A DNA stretch of 46,480 nt from Bacilli bacterium (lineage in GTDB: Bacteria > Bacillota_I > Bacilli_A > RF39 > UBA660). The notes beneath the pieces were generated by a model. It had not been told where the DNA came from. It saw only the letters and a list, made by a program, of their open reading frames with translations, and made no database searches. The translations under genes were made by a program, and so were the position numbers. Location: assembly GCA_022791775.1 (NCBI GenBank), contig JAAVZT010000001.1, forward strand, positions 1 through 46,480. The letters run 5' to 3'. Positions 4,905 through 10,005 of the stretch are shown piece after piece. Position 1 is the stretch's first letter; each line of letters opens with the position of its first letter.

Positions 4905-5027
4905 TTAACAGCAACGATTGCCATATACATTTGAGTATTCATCTTCTTCAGAATATGAATAACATGGTGTATAACTATGATGGTATACATGATGATTGAT
5001 CATTCTAGTATGACATGGAATCATATG
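4905..5027 (-). pseudogene. 3' half of a CotD-like spore coat gene, split by the 5026-9762 element
   Basis: The residues encoded here, beginning H-M-I-P-C-H-T-R-M-I-N-H-H and ending in two cysteines, resemble the second half of Bacillus CotD, which has V-P-H-x-x-P-x-H-T followed by N-H-x-H and ends in a Cys-Cys tail. The frame stays open upstream to an ATG at 5057 that overlaps the stop of the NERD gene (ATGA). Another ATG at 5024 follows AAAAAGGA. Either could start a short peptide, but neither makes a whole CotD. Joined at CA (plus-strand 5026-5027 to 9761-9762) with the ORF at 9754-9984, it gives a continuous in-frame protein of 114 residues. It may therefore be an exon-like fragment expressed only after excision of the element, or a dead remnant. 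Confidence 0.7.
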
Positions 5028-5040
5028 TGTGTGTCCTTTT
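5015..5040. other. Predicted attachment site, left junction
   Basis: The proposed crossover dinucleotide is TG at 5026-5027, inside the alternating tract TGTGTGTG at 5026-5033. The coat-gene half lies to the left and the element to the right. The repeated TG leaves some ambiguity. Only the first TG, or the pair six bases on, keeps the coat frame open, and the first gives the gap-free match to CotD. Confidence 0.5.
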
Positions 5041-5053
5041 TTGATAGATTTAT

Positions 5054-5788
5054 TCATTTCTTAATGTATTTACATTTAGGATAATTAGAACAACCAATAA
5101 ATTTGCCATATTTACCATTACGTTCTACTAATTTATTACCACATTTTGGACATATCATATTATTTTCTAATTCTCTATTATTATTAATCTTAATACGAAT
5201 ATCTTTCACATGCTGTTTTCTTAAAAACTTATCTTCAATATTATTAGATATAATTATATTTGCTAATTCTTTTATATCTTTATCAACAAGTAATTCTTCA
5301 TATTTTAAAATTTCACTTTTTAAATAGTCAACTTGTGTGACTATACTTCTACTTTTAACAGCAATCTTTGCTTGATTGGAAAAACATACAATGGGGATAA
5401 AACATTTATCATCTAGTTTAAGTAAATTTGATAGAGATTTTAGGTGCCCATAATTTTGATGAATAGGATTCACAAAATAACTTTTATTTTTTCCTAAATA
5501 TTGACACCATTTATTATCATATTCTTTTCCTTTAATCAAACCATAATAATTTTTCATTTCTATAACAAAAATACCAAATTTTGATAAAACTAAATGGTCA
5601 ATTTGATGAGTTCCTTTTTCATCTTTTATCATAATATCATTTAAAACCACATATTTATTTTTAGGTAATTTTTTTAATTCTAATTTTACCCAAAATTCAC
5701 CCATAAATCCTCTAAACTTTGGATAATATATTTTTAATATTATGCCTAATACTATTAAAATAATTCCTTCAACAAAACTTTTAATCAT
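5054..5788 (-). CDS. NERD-domain nuclease-like membrane protein with C-terminal zinc finger
   Basis: The protein (244 aa) opens with a membrane helix (residues 7-23), followed by a NERD domain with QIDH (Asp64), VIEMKN (Glu77-x-Lys79) and a downstream Gln in NPIHQNYGH. Together these resemble the PD-(D/E)xK nuclease core that NERD shares with restriction-like enzymes. The last 32 residues form a topoisomerase-type zinc finger with Cys213, Cys216, Cys233 and Cys239. NERD proteins are presumed to act on nucleic acid, but their role is unsettled. It is the cargo gene nearest the left end of the element, and its stop (TGA) overlaps the ATG of the coat-fragment ORF. Roles in defence or in DNA processing at excision are both guesses. 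Confidence 0.78.
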   Translation of the reverse strand: MIKSFVEGIILIVLGIILKIYYPKFRGFMGEFWVKLELKKLPKNKYVVLNDIMIKDEKGTHQIDHLVLSKFGIFVIEMKNYYGLIKGKEYDNKWCQYLGKNKSYFVNPIHQNYGHLKSLSNLLKLDDKCFIPIVCFSNQAKIAVKSRSIVTQVDYLKSEILKYEELLVDKDIKELANIIISNNIEDKFLRKQHVKDIRIKINNNRELENNMICPKCGNKLVERNGKYGKFIGCSNYPKCKYIKK

Positions 5789-5825
5789 ATGATGAAATCA
5801 CCACCATAATGATTATATCATGATT

Positions 5826-7394
5826 CTAAGCTAAATCCTTAAAAGTAGCCTTAATATTTATTGTTTTGTCTTCAAATATTTCAATTTTATCAATTAAATT
5901 AATTATTAATTCTCTACTTGGTTCTTTCATAGATAAAAATTTATTAGTATATTCATCAATCATTTTATTTTTATATTCCTTATTAATATTGTCATTAATA
6001 CTATTATTTAATTCTGTGTATTTTTTTTGTTTTATATTTAGTTCATTTTCTAGCCTAACCTTTACTCTTTCAAATTGTTTTTCAGTTATTTTTTTATTTA
6101 ACTTATCAATGTAAATAATATCTAAATTATTATTTATTTGTTTAATATCATTAATTATTCTTTCTAACTCTTTTTTATTATTTAATTTATTATCTTCAGT
6201 TAAATTATTTAATACATTATTTTTAACTTTATCTTTATTAATATAATTTAAGCACATATTAGTTAACGAATTTATTATAACTTTCTCTAATTCATCATAG
6301 TTATTAGAATGAGTAGTACATAATCTTTTTTTCATATAAGTTCTATAATAATTACAAATCGTATAACATCTATTATCTTTTTTACGTCTAGATTGTATCG
6401 ACATTCTATGTCCACAATCCCCACAATATAATAATCCATCTAATAAATGAATTTCTTTTTTTTCGTTTCTGCCTTTATTTTTAGGTATTCTTTTTTGAAC
6501 TTCATAAAATGTTTCTTTATCAATAATTTCTTCATGAGTATTTTCAACAATTATATAATCATTAGGATTATTCTTAATTATTTTTTTTACTTTATAGTTT
6601 ACTTTATTCCGTTTATTTTGTACCATATCACCTATATATATCCTATTTGTTAAAATATCTCTTATAGTTTTAGAATGCCACTCTCCAAATTTTAAATTAT
6701 AGTTACTTTTCCATTCAAAGTTATAGTATTGTGCTGGAGTTTTAACTCTTTCATTTGTTAACTGTTTGGCTATCTTAAAAAACGATAATCCATCTAAACA
6801 CATATCAAATATTCTTTTAACAACACTTGCTTGTTCAGTATTTATTACTAAATGATTTTTATTATCTTTATCTTGATCATATCCAAATGGAGTTCTACCT
6901 CCTACCCATTTTCCTTCTTTCATTTTTGCTTTTAGACTAGATTTTATTTTTTTTGAAATATCTTTAGCATACATATCATTCATTATAGCTTTAAATGGAG
7001 CTATATCATTATTAGTACTATCCAAAAAGGTATCTATGTTATCTGTTACTGCAATATACCTAACATTATGTTTTGGAAAATATCTTTCAATTAAATTTCC
7101 TGTACCAATATAATCTCTTCCAAGTCTTGACATATCTTTAGTAATAACCATATTTATTTTACCAGATTCAATATCATTTAATAATCTATTAAAATCAGGT
7201 CTGTCAAAATTAGTTCCAGAGTAACCATCATCTATATAAATATCATATACTCTTAAATTATTCTCTTTCACATATTGAAGTAATAAACTTTTTTGATTTG
7301 TAATACTTTCACTTTCTAAGGTTTTATCATCATCTTCCCTAGATAATCTTATATAAAGTCCAACATTATATATCTTATTTAAACTCTCTAACAA
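5826..7394 (-). CDS. Large serine recombinase
   Basis: This 522-residue enzyme is a large serine integrase/resolvase. The catalytic domain begins with GLYIRLSRED, with nucleophile Ser18, and continues through the YSGTNFDRPDF and KDMSRLGRDYI motifs. Next come a recombinase domain, a zinc ribbon (LLYCGDCGHRMS, then further cysteines near residues 348 and 360) and a long C-terminal coiled-coil region that normally controls the direction of recombination. The start is TTG at 7394, chosen because AAAGGAGG lies at ideal distance; it overlaps the stop of the upstream small ORF. Relatives such as SpoIVCA (skin), SprA (SP-beta) and TnpX excise or integrate elements. Its location inside a split coat gene makes it the likely enzyme that inserts and removes this segment. 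Confidence 0.95.
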   Translation of the reverse strand: MLESLNKIYNVGLYIRLSREDDDKTLESESITNQKSLLLQYVKENNLRVYDIYIDDGYSGTNFDRPDFNRLLNDIESGKINMVITKDMSRLGRDYIGTGNLIERYFPKHNVRYIAVTDNIDTFLDSTNNDIAPFKAIMNDMYAKDISKKIKSSLKAKMKEGKWVGGRTPFGYDQDKDNKNHLVINTEQASVVKRIFDMCLDGLSFFKIAKQLTNERVKTPAQYYNFEWKSNYNLKFGEWHSKTIRDILTNRIYIGDMVQNKRNKVNYKVKKIIKNNPNDYIIVENTHEEIIDKETFYEVQKRIPKNKGRNEKKEIHLLDGLLYCGDCGHRMSIQSRRKKDNRCYTICNYYRTYMKKRLCTTHSNNYDELEKVIINSLTNMCLNYINKDKVKNNVLNNLTEDNKLNNKKELERIINDIKQINNNLDIIYIDKLNKKITEKQFERVKVRLENELNIKQKKYTELNNSINDNINKEYKNKMIDEYTNKFLSMKEPSRELIINLIDKIEIFEDKTINIKATFKDLA

Positions 7395-7564
7395 TTCTTA
7401 CCTCCTTTAAGAGATAAATAAGCACATGATGATGGTACCTCACATTTTTTATTTTTACAAATCATTTGAATATATTTTTTAAGTTCCTTATTTAAAACTT
7501 TTATAAAAACATCATTTATATCATTATTTTCATTATAGATATAATTAATTTTGTACTTATCCAT
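7388..7564 (-). CDS. Small protein upstream of and coupled to the recombinase, 58 aa
   Basis: I start it at the ATG at 7564 (MDKYKINYIY), which follows GAGGTG at seven bases; a GTG five codons earlier lies within that binding site. The protein is acidic at its N-terminus, then basic, with three cysteines in the second half (MICKNKKCEV, SSCAYL) and a fourth at the C-terminus. Its stop overlaps the recombinase TTG start, and its last codons contain the recombinase ribosome binding site, so the two are translated together. Small ORFs in this position beside serine recombinases can encode direction factors or regulators. I do not recognise the family, so that role is only a possibility. Confidence 0.6.
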   Translation of the reverse strand: MDKYKINYIYNENNDINDVFIKVLNKELKKYIQMICKNKKCEVPSSCAYLSLKGGKNC

Positions 7565-7607
7565 TATTAAGCACCTCACTTAAATTTATGGATAAATAAC
7601 TGATTTT

Positions 7608-7658
7608 AGTAATACTAAATTGTATAATATTTAAATTACACACATATTTAGTATTACT
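7608..7658. repeat. 13-bp perfect inverted repeat in the recombinase leader
   Basis: AGTAATACTAAAT at 7608-7620 is repeated exactly in inverse at 7646-7658, with 25 bases between. In the minus-strand RNA the first arm overlaps the last codon and stop of the 11-codon leader peptide. No T-run follows, so it is not a simple terminator. It could be an RNA stem controlled by translation of the leader, or a protein-binding operator. Confidence 0.6.
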
Positions 7659-7689
7659 TATAAGCATTCGCTCTCTTTCTAATTATCAT
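7654..7689 (-). CDS. Predicted 11-aa leader peptide of the recombinase operon
   Basis: ATG at 7689 follows AAGAAGGAG at nine bases, the best ribosome binding site in this region, and encodes M-I-I-R-K-R-A-N-A-Y-K before TAA. It begins about 20 bases after the predicted transcription start. Its last lysine codon and stop lie inside the 5' arm of the 13-bp inverted repeat, the layout of attenuation systems in which a translating or stalled ribosome decides whether the stem forms. Translation has not been shown, and a chance ORF of this length is possible, but the strong binding site and position argue for it. Confidence 0.45.
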   Translation of the reverse strand: MIIRKRANAYK

Positions 7690-7714
7690 AAACATCATCT
7701 CCTTCTTGTGATGC

Positions 7715-7743
7715 ATGTTACCTCCATTAAAAAAATGAGTCAA
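7715..7743 (-). promoter_or_regulatory. Promoter of the recombinase operon
   Basis: On the minus strand TTGACT is followed after exactly 17 bases by TAACAT. It lies 26 bases upstream of the leader-peptide ATG and points at the small ORF and recombinase. Confidence 0.55.
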
Positions 7744-7768
7744 GCCATAAATTATAGAAAGTAATGCC

Positions 7769-7960
7769 CTTCATCCTAAAAATATTCATAATTTAATAGA
7801 TTATGAAACAGTAGGATAAGAAAGTTGTGTATCAACATATAATTTCCTTTTTAAAATAAAGAAAACTATATACATAATTCTTATTTTGCACTTACAAAAT
7901 TCATCCTAATTTGTAGGATGATATTTAGGATAATCCTAATAATAACAATATTTTTAAACA
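7769..7960. repeat. Cluster of hairpins bordered by TAGGAT/ATCCTA
   Basis: This noncoding stretch holds several inverted repeats that share one word. At 7771-7819 an outer ATCCTA/TAGGAT pair encloses an 8-bp stem (TTCATAAT/ATTATGAA). At 7901-7921 TCATCCTA and TAGGATGA form a stem with a five-base loop. At 7925-7939 TTAGGAT-A-ATCCTAA is a palindrome. A further ATCCTA/TAGGAT pair forms the terminator at 7961-8018. The recurring word suggests a protein-binding array, a structured RNA or a small repeat family. I see no ORF in it. Confidence 0.55.
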
Positions 7961-8018
7961 CAAAAAAATCATCCTATCATCTAATTTCAACTAGATTTTG
8001 TAGGATGATAATTTTTTT
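7961..8018 (-). terminator. Terminator after the Fic gene, probably bidirectional
   Basis: AATCATCCTA (7967-7976) pairs with TAGGATGATA (8001-8010), with an inner ATCTA/TAGAT stem. Seven A precede it and seven T follow it, so it could end transcripts from either side. It lies just beyond the Fic stop. Confidence 0.7.
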
Positions 8019-8769
8019 AATTATTTTCTTCTATTTCAAAATTTAATAATTCTTCACAAGTTTTTTCATATAAGTCTTGTTCATGTTTTATGGTATCAAT
8101 TAAAAACATTTTATCATTTTCATATTCTTTTAAACCTCTCATATAATAAGGTTTATCATTATCTAATACAATAAATGGCATAATATTATTTTTTAAGCAT
8201 TCTTTAAACATTATAATTCTACCAACTCTTCCATTACCATCACCAAAAGGATGAATTTTCTCAAATTTATAATGAAAATTAATAATATCTTCTAAAGTAA
8301 CATTAGTTTTAGAATTATATTCACTTAATAAATTTTCAATTTCTTTCTCTACATCTTCTGGTGCAGTTGTCTTAATAACATCAACAAGGCCTATCATATT
8401 CGGAACTATTTTAAATCCCCCAACATTATATCTAGGATTTTCCTCATCACTCGTATTTCTTTTTAACATCTTATTCATTTCGATAATCATTTCTTTAGAT
8501 AACTTATTATCAACATTATCTAACATATAATCAAATAATTTAAAATGATTCTTAGATTCAGTTAAATCATCTAATTTTATTAGAGTCTCACTTTTAGGAA
8601 TAAAAGATGAAGTATCAAATATTGCTTCAGTTTGTTCACTAGTTAATCTGCTACCCTCAATTTTATTTGAATTATATGAAAAATTAACTTGAGAATAATG
8701 ATAGATATTACCTTTAAACTTTGATTCTTTTTGTTTGATTAATTCCTTTTTAATTTTACTTATATCCAT
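8017..8769 (-). CDS. Fic-domain AMP-transferase-like protein
   Basis: Fic proteins transfer AMP or another nucleotide group onto target proteins. The complete active-site motif HPFGDGNGRVGR is at residues 173-184 of this 250-residue protein, with catalytic His173. Near the N-terminus S-N-K-I-E-G (residues 34-39) fits the self-inhibitory motif (S/T)xxxE(G/N), so this is a class II Fic that holds itself inactive until regulated. I start at the ATG at 8769 (MDISKIKKEL): GGGGGA lies at good distance, and the start directly follows the stop of the ASCH gene, with which it forms an operon. The longer in-frame start 13 codons upstream lies inside that gene. The target is unknown. It is cargo of the element. 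Confidence 0.9.
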   Translation of the reverse strand: MDISKIKKELIKQKESKFKGNIYHYSQVNFSYNSNKIEGSRLTSEQTEAIFDTSSFIPKSETLIKLDDLTESKNHFKLFDYMLDNVDNKLSKEMIIEMNKMLKRNTSDEENPRYNVGGFKIVPNMIGLVDVIKTTAPEDVEKEIENLLSEYNSKTNVTLEDIINFHYKFEKIHPFGDGNGRVGRIIMFKECLKNNIMPFIVLDNDKPYYMRGLKEYENDKMFLIDTIKHEQDLYEKTCEELLNFEIEENN

Positions 8770-8770
8770 A

Positions 8771-9649
8771 TTACATATCCCCCAATGAAATATTATTACC
8801 ATTTTCACAATGCTTATAGAACTCTAAAACATTTAGACGAAATTTTGGTTTTTTATAATTATTATTTAACTCATATTTAATAAATTTATCTCTTACATTA
8901 ATTAATAAATCTTGTAAGGAGTTATATTCATGTATGCCTTTAAATCTTTCCCACGAATGTTCAAACCAATAATACTTATTATCTTTTTCAAAAGTTAAAA
9001 ATGTATGTGTTGGACATTTAGCTTTATCGTAATGAACTATAAAATAAGTTTTAATGTTCCAATCATTACCTTTAAAATAATGTCTTTCAAGTTCTACTTG
9101 ATCCCAGCATACACCAACTTTGTTTTTTATTATTTCATTAGGACTTTGTAAAATATAATTGTCTGAATAATTTTCATCAACTATTTTATGTTTACTCCCC
9201 TGTTTATCCATCCAACCATATTCTATATTTTCCATTAAATTCATAATTTCAAATTCATTATAATAATCCCAAATATTAAGTTGACCTTTTGCTTTTATAA
9301 ATTTTATAGGCTTAATATTATCTAGTATCCAAGCATATCTTCCTTCTTTATATTCACCACAAATATATTCTTGACAGTTATTCTTTTTCATTTCTTCTAC
9401 ATACTCTTTTGTCATATAAATACAATCTACCAAATTGCATTTGCAAATAATATTTCCAAAGTTCATATTTTTATTTTCAACTAAACTCATTAATTCTTTA
9501 TCACCTAAGTCATTTTTAGATGGTTTAGTCATACTTGCATGAATATATAATTCTCCCCTATAATTTGTTTTCCAACTTCTAGTTTCAATTAACTTCTTTT
9601 TTTCATATATCAAAGTTGCAAAAGGCTCTGTCAGACTTAATACCTTCAT
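8771..9649 (-). CDS. ASCH domain fused to a transglutaminase/papain-like Cys-His domain
   Basis: Residues 1-125 of 292 resemble an ASCH domain (MKVLSLTEPFATLIYEKKK, then ETRSW and GELYIHAS), an RNA-binding beta-barrel related to PUA. Residues 145-285 carry a different domain with Cys181 in GVCWDQVEL, His215 in PTHTFLTF and an acidic residue in WFEHSW (Glu230). This order of Cys, His and Glu/Asp is typical of transglutaminase-like cysteine enzymes. The start is the ATG at 9649, placed eight bases after AGGTG; a GTG three codons earlier overlaps that site. It lies at the right end of the element, directly upstream of the Fic gene. A joint role in modifying proteins or RNA-associated targets is inference. 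Confidence 0.72.
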   Translation of the reverse strand: MKVLSLTEPFATLIYEKKKLIETRSWKTNYRGELYIHASMTKPSKNDLGDKELMSLVENKNMNFGNIICKCNLVDCIYMTKEYVEEMKKNNCQEYICGEYKEGRYAWILDNIKPIKFIKAKGQLNIWDYYNEFEIMNLMENIEYGWMDKQGSKHKIVDENYSDNYILQSPNEIIKNKVGVCWDQVELERHYFKGNDWNIKTYFIVHYDKAKCPTHTFLTFEKDNKYYWFEHSWERFKGIHEYNSLQDLLINVRDKFIKYELNNNYKKPKFRLNVLEFYKHCENGNNISLGDM

Positions 9650-9666
9650 AGGAATCACCTATAAAT

Positions 9667-9672
9667 ATTATA
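9667..9672 (-). promoter_or_regulatory. -10 element of the ASCH-Fic operon
   Basis: TATAAT on the minus strand is preceded by TG one base upstream (extended -10, TGGTATAAT), 17 bases before the ASCH ATG. No good -35 is visible, which an extended -10 can compensate for. Confidence 0.5.
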
Positions 9673-9747
9673 CCACACAAAAAGACACTTCTTATCAAAT
9701 GCCTCCAAATTTGTACTTATTTTCTCTTAACTTATTTGGTCTATCAT

Positions 9748-9776
9748 AAATTATCACACCTGAGGAACTTCATAGT
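9748..9776. other. Predicted attachment site, right junction
   Basis: The proposed crossover dinucleotide is TG at 9761-9762, inside the codons for Pro-Gln near the end of the CotD-like 5' half. The element side reads ATCACACC. The coat reading frame meets a TGA only two codons inside the element. Confidence 0.5.
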
Positions 9777-9984
9777 TGATAGTACGATGGCATACTCTTT
9801 CTTGTGGGCATTCATATACTGGTGGACACATCATTGGAGCACAAGATGGCATTTGACAACATGAAGGCATTCCTCCCATATAATTATCATAACTCATATT
9901 CATGGCAAAACCTGGCATTTCCATATTGGCTTGAGCGCTCATATTTTGTGTTGCTTCTTGACAACAACGATCATTTTCAAACAT
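9754..9984 (-). CDS. CotD-like spore coat protein, 5' half of a split gene
   Basis: The 76-residue product is rich in Met, Cys and Pro and ends CPPVYECPQERVCHRTINY then EVPQV. This matches the first part of CotD-family coat proteins, which reach a V-P-H motif and then continue with a His-rich half. Here the frame stops two codons after E-V-P, exactly where the element begins. The missing half is at 4905-5027. I start at the ATG at 9984, eight bases after AAGGA; an in-frame ATG three codons earlier is too close. A SigK-like promoter lies upstream. As it stands it would make a truncated coat protein. After excision of the element it would encode 114 residues. Confidence 0.78.
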   Translation of the reverse strand: MFENDRCCQEATQNMSAQANMEMPGFAMNMSYDNYMGGMPSCCQMPSCAPMMCPPVYECPQERVCHRTINYEVPQV

Positions 9985-10005
9985 AACAAACATTCCTTTC
10001 TATTG

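Follow-up and report, generated by a model that had tools for sequence, protein, structure and literature searches.

The question raised by this locus is whether two adjacent genes of an uncultured gut member of the Bacilli form a dedicated functional unit. The window, i.e. the whole stretch of 46,480 nucleotides that was analysed (contig JAAVZT010000001.1 of assembly GCA_022791775.1, lineage RF39; UBA660), carries on its minus strand a gene for a fusion of an ASCH and a transglutaminase-like domain (ASCH-TG), followed by a fic gene (Table 1). An earlier note had taken the two for co-translated cargo of a mobile element and had proposed a toxin/antitoxin-like or defence module. The close gene arrangement was borne out, as were the coordinates, lengths and order: the TAA stop codon of ASCH-TG (8773..8771) and the ATG of fic (8769) are spaced by a single base. 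A ribosome-binding-like site, GGGGGA, is located eight bases 5' of this ATG within the 3' end of ASCH-TG, which makes co-transcription and translational coupling of both genes probable. The dN/dS ratios of fic (0.09-0.20) and ASCH-TG (0.14-0.20) point to purifying selection, which marks both as conserved genes rather than ORFs that arose by chance. A promoter scan of the AT-rich region yielded 52 sites compared to a mean of 47.7 in shuffled sequences, hence no excess over the shuffles. Between fic and the 63-aa ORF (window 7765-8010), repeated TCATCCTA / TAGGATGA stems occur, one of which is terminator-like.

Table 1. Features of the element and of its insertion site in the window.
Feature	Position	Strand	Basis or remark
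Whole integrative element, 4,735 bp	5026..9760	-	junctions, rejoined ORF, intact same-genus gene
CotD-like gene, 5' part	9761..9993	-	
attL, CCTCA joined to GGTGTGATAATTTATGATAGACC	9738..9765	-	junction comparison
ASCH-TG fusion gene, 292 aa	8771..9649	-	cargo slot 1; ASCH ~1-131, TG ~132-292
ATAATTATAA repeat, site of 30-bp in-frame deletion relative to L041	8853..8862	-	
Fic gene, 250 aa, class II	8017..8769	-	element core gene
Inhibitory-helix motif SNKIEG, Fic residues 34-39	8653..8670	-	sequence and relatives
Catalytic motif HPFGDGNGRVGR, Fic residues 173-184	8218..8253	-	sequence and relatives
Small ORF, 63 aa, just before the recombinase	7388..7579	-	recurs there in related elements
Large serine recombinase, 522 aa	5826..7394	-	Pfam Resolvase, Recombinase, Zn_ribbon_recom; PHROG integrase
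NERD + Zn-ribbon protein, 244 aa, cargo slot 2	5054..5788	-	Pfam; position variable among elements
attR, TCTATCAAAAAAGGACACACACA joined to TATGATTCC	5017..5048	-	junction comparison
CotD-like gene, 3' part	4905..5025	-	

Both genes lie inside an integrative element with defined ends, a rejoined ORF and an empty site, so that their description as element cargo holds. The element is organized in the order attL, cargo slot 1, fic, 63-aa ORF, recombinase, cargo slot 2, attR, and interrupts a CotD-like gene at a fixed codon. When the flanks are joined, this gene becomes a single open frame ending in TINYEVPHMIPCHTRMINHHVYHHSYTPCYSYSEEDEYSNVYGNRCC, and it occurs intact next to ffh in four genomes of the same genus (G291, G266, G288 and G253; loci L111, L113, L114 and L115). 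The predicted attP, TCTATCAAAAAAGGACACACACA joined to GGTGTGATAATTTATGATAGA, displays dyad symmetry about a central CA at 20 of 32 positions, in keeping with a large serine recombinase. Thus, the recombinase, attL and attR, the empty site and a symmetric attP with a dinucleotide core, which together define elements of this type, are all present. The recombinase would insert the circular form at the CA core of the coat-like gene, and the 63-aa ORF is a possible candidate for the recombination directionality factor.

The assignment of the split gene as a coat gene rests on a CotD match that remains under the Pfam cut-off (E = 0.009). The genome carries Spo0A (2e-41) and SpoIVA (4e-107), and some members of RF39 and related orders were predicted to sporulate (PMC10868615). 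The analogy to gin, skin and SPbeta (PMC5595907, PMC4191935) suggests that excision of the element may take place in mother cells during sporulation. Regulated excision during sporulation could even be its main biology, with Fic and the cargo as passengers of a gene-intervening element of the gin/skin kind. Apart from these precedents, the insertion into a CotD-like gene whose ORF is rejoined in frame, the sporulation genes in the genome and the small ORF in front of the recombinase, as a possible directionality factor, are consistent with such a role. However, the four same-genus genomes represent uninserted rather than excised sites, and a mere passenger would not be expected to be retained as consistently as Fic, nor to be under purifying selection. 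We therefore regard this explanation as somewhat unlikely.

The Fic domain of the 250-aa protein was readily identified (Pfam, E = 5.5e-16). The protein contains both sequence features of class II Fic proteins, HxFx(D/E)GNGRxxR and an N-terminal (S/T)xxxE(G/N). Among 37 distinct close relatives, the inhibitory motif is kept in all and the catalytic motif in 36, in agreement with the earlier assignment of a full active site combined with a built-in inhibitory helix; both SNKIEG and HPFGDGNGRVGR are intact. The nearest solved chains are 4x2e/4x2c (E 8e-32), and a profile match assigns the protein to the PADLOC candidate family PDC-S04 (E 9e-100). Judged from its class II homologues, Fic would be an AMP-transferase that is silenced by its own N-terminal helix through Glu38 of SNKIEG. 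Once released, it might AMPylate a cellular target and thereby cause growth arrest, in the service of either defence or maintenance of the element. Mutation of the equivalent motif in Campylobacter fetus Fic1 resulted in a toxic protein (PMC5651007), and protection by abortive infection has been reported for Sofic, another Fic protein (PMC12249575). A PDC-S04 gene tried in its native host conferred no observed phage defence (PMC12409345).

In ASCH-TG, the ASCH domain scored above the Pfam cut-off (E = 1e-4; 23.4 bits compared to 21.2), while the transglutaminase-like region matched DUF553 just under the cut-off (E = 1e-3); NCBIfam gave no match for the protein. Among the aligned rows of 77 distinct TG homologues, 73 of 74 have Cys181, all 73 have His215 and 72 of 73 have Glu230. 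An AF2 model of the undeleted protein of locus L041 (pLDDT 93.7, pTM 0.82) places Cys181 at the beginning of helix 181-192, His215 within strand 214-222 and Glu230 at the end of strand 225-230, which supports a transglutaminase arrangement of the three residues. Foldseek searches retrieved the ASCH domain of TRIP4 for the N-terminal part (E 3e-9) and, for the TG part, VASH2 (1e-4), NAT3 (9e-4), which has a Cys-His-Glu triad, and CPR-C4 (1.5e-3). The predicted secondary structure, the conservation and these matches thus back the placement of Cys, His and Glu in a transglutaminase fold that the earlier note had asked to be checked. The fusion itself is genuine, as are the active-site motifs. Given the predicted fold, ASCH-TG probably acts as a cysteine acyltransferase or a peptidase, guided by an ASCH part that would bind nucleic acid.

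The copy in the window lacks 10 residues that are kept by its relatives. The underlying 30-bp deletion falls between two copies of ATAATTATAA and takes out the conserved TG strand 270-275, and the local model confidence at this position drops from 92-97 in the intact protein to 73-78. Owing to the lost strand and the decreased confidence, the ASCH-TG allele in the window may be inactive; alternatively, an error in the assembly may account for the deletion.

We surveyed 288 order-level genomes for relatives of Fic (E<=1e-60) and of the recombinase (E<=1e-180), which were found in 87 and 54 genomes, respectively. Fic was present in 26 of the 27 loci that had a recombinase at least 79% identical together with enough upstream sequence; G208 is without Fic, and the gene is broken in G014 and L043. 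At recombinase identities of 71-77%, Fic occurred in one of ten cases. Directly before fic, at least nine unrelated gene types were identified, all co-directional and close: ASCH-TG, double GNAT, TG plus GNAT, deoxyribosyltransferase-like, a Peptidase_MA_2 metallopeptidase, SLOG cluster4, ATP-grasp-like and three unnamed families; some elements carry none of the listed types. The deoxyribosyltransferase-like and ATP-grasp-like assignments are our own readings, the former having no convincing Pfam match and the latter no Pfam match. Slot genes without a convincing Pfam family include those of L155/L212 (284 aa), L142/L209 (155 aa), L141/L197 (277 aa) and L161/L208 (160 aa); by eye, the 284-aa protein appears ART-like and the 277-aa protein ATP-grasp-like. 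The attR side constitutes a second variable position, occupied by NERD, MazEF, SWIM-type or AAA-type proteins. Where the window has NERD, L043, L106, L107, L205, L210 and L218 carry a MazE/MazF-type pair; in L105, L199, L201, L202, L212 and L224, the position is taken by a protein of 525-538 aa that contains a SWIM-type zinc motif.

In alignments of elements that differ in the slot gene, the region extending from the start of fic up to and including the recombinase is approximately 85-100% identical at the DNA level (91-99% within fic, except for one alignment window at 89%). Upstream of fic and through the slot gene, identity is 51-63% in most alignment windows, i.e. at the level of unrelated sequence. 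On the Fic tree, at least 14 changes of slot type are required among 25 labelled rows. Together with a breakpoint located where fic starts, these changes indicate many exchanges that affected only the slot gene. Slot and fic have also travelled together: between the window and L041, which belongs to a different genus, ASCH-TG and Fic are 96-100% identical compared to 75-97% for the recombinase/NERD parts and 53-71% for the chromosomal flanks. At synonymous sites, the recombinase has diverged by 0.48, fic by 0.06 and ASCH-TG by 0.007. The higher identity of ASCH-TG and fic than of the rest of the element indicates that slot and fic recently moved as a block between elements.

The near-constant occurrence of Fic within the recombinase clade, and its architecture of a self-inhibited toxin, could be taken to suggest an addiction module that holds the element in place. 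However, no post-segregational killing is expected because a class II Fic protein carries its inhibitor in cis, and loss of the gene would remove toxin and inhibitor together. In addition, MazEF is present in several of the elements. Hence, an addiction function of Fic appears unlikely.

Full-length ASCH-TG was found in 36 of the 288 genomes, with fic adjacent in eight and absent next to it in the remaining 28. The pair does recur in several genera (the eight genomes and further MAG contigs). Fic-linked ASCH-TG occupies two places on the ASCH-TG tree, mostly within one clade; a few labels on this tree are wrong due to frameshifted fic copies such as those of L043 and L046. On this tree, Fic-linked ASCH-TG does not form a single clade. 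In L094 (8250-9336; G013), a lone ASCH-TG is located just beyond attR, and the element's own slot is occupied by a SLOG gene. No full ASCH-TG was found in viral contigs; phages matched only the ASCH part, and plasmids mostly the ASCH part only. Accordingly, a phage origin was rejected. Fic was present in one viral contig, L166. Papers that mention ASCH together with Fic or with transglutaminase-like proteins contained no description of this pair.

The TG domain represents a lineage-expanded, promiscuous module that occurs alone or in fusions, with up to several copies per genome. Fusions were observed to 2H-like (L084, L085, L073), metallophosphoesterase (L075), HD (L074) and GNAT domains (L081, L083, L223). 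In L070, L071, L076-L080, L086 and L087, TG is followed by a C-terminal domain of about 190 aa (LYFYHLVNK...YIYFFR) that has no Pfam match. ASCH-TG might accordingly be a NAT-like metabolic or nucleotide-modifying acyltransferase that serves as fitness cargo and is neither a protease nor a defence effector. The joining of TG to metallophosphoesterase, HD, GNAT and 2H-phosphoesterase-like domains is in line with such an activity, although the 2H assignment is under the cut-off. The same is true for the structural match to the Cys-His-Glu enzyme NAT3, although vasohibin peptidases are the best fold match on the TG side. Other slot genes, too, encode acetyltransferases, deoxyribosyltransferase-like and SLOG proteins. 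We consider this role possible, although less likely than not.

These distributions bear directly on the initial question. The one-base spacing, the repeated occurrence of both genes side by side in several genera, the concentration of Fic-linked ASCH-TG mostly in one clade and the ability of slot and fic to move as a block would all fit a two-gene toxin/antitoxin or defence system in which ASCH-TG controls or completes Fic. However, fic genes of the same close family follow nine or more unrelated genes, or none, ASCH-TG mostly occurs without an adjacent fic, Fic has its own inhibitory motif, and short spacing is also common to other slot genes. We consider a system of this kind very improbable. 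A dedicated toxin/antitoxin pair was rejected since constant pairing was not found (at least 14 slot changes; 28 of 36 ASCH-TG genomes without adjacent fic). The toxin/antitoxin-like unit of the earlier note was thus not borne out, given the number of slot types and the breakpoint at the fic start; the anticipated recurrence of the pair was found, while a dedicated pairing was not.

Taken together, we favour, as the fairly likely explanation, that Fic is a constant core component and ASCH-TG an interchangeable cargo gene of a minimal integrative element. ASCH-TG would provide an accessory trait on which Fic does not depend; we infer the biochemical and physiological functions of both proteins from their domains and relatives. 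Slot genes could nevertheless cooperate with Fic in ways not visible in sequence. A more speculative arrangement, which we deem quite unlikely, is a plug-in platform in which the constant, self-inhibited Fic serves as shared actuator or safeguard for the slot enzyme, with loss of the cassette once a sporulating mother cell restores the coat gene. With Fic as core and ASCH-TG as cargo, the supposed gene pair is replaced by a defined mobile platform with exact ends and an empty site, consisting of a core plus two cargo positions that vary. This platform was observed in many genera of uncultured Bacilli from the gut. The same Fic next to different neighbours constitutes a natural series for elucidating the role of orphan self-inhibited Fic proteins in mobile elements, and the predicted attB and attP sites of the recombinase are directly testable. 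The element would also extend spore-gene-splitting elements to a lineage with reduced genomes.

Compared to known systems, the parts of the element belong to established kinds while their arrangement is new. A serine recombinase is common to this element and to gin in gerE (PMC5595907), skin in sigK and SPbeta in spsM (PMC4191935), as is a short att core within a gene, here a putatively sporulation-type one, that is restored by joining the flanks. In contrast to these, the element in the window has one recombinase, a CotD-like target and a conserved Fic, its host genome is reduced (1.1 Mb), and at 4.7 kb it is far smaller than gin (28.6 kb; PMC5595907). Its Fic protein shares motifs, length and fold with class II Fic proteins (4x2e/4x2c; C. 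fetus Fic1, PMC5651007) and with PDC-S04. Unlike known class II proteins, it is a core component of a serine-recombinase element in which the gene upstream of it is exchangeable, and unlike C. fetus Fic1, which is accompanied by Fic2, it is without a Fic partner. ASCH-TG has the same fold and E..R motif region as TRIP4-type ASCH domains, but is bacterial and fused to TG. Its TG domain has in common with vasohibins, CPR-C4, NAT3 and DUF553 a Cys at the start of a helix and a His and an acidic residue on the next strands, and the Cys-His-Glu composition is the same as in NAT3. Identity to these proteins is only about 12-16%, and, unlike them, the TG domain is lineage-expanded and joined to many partner domains.
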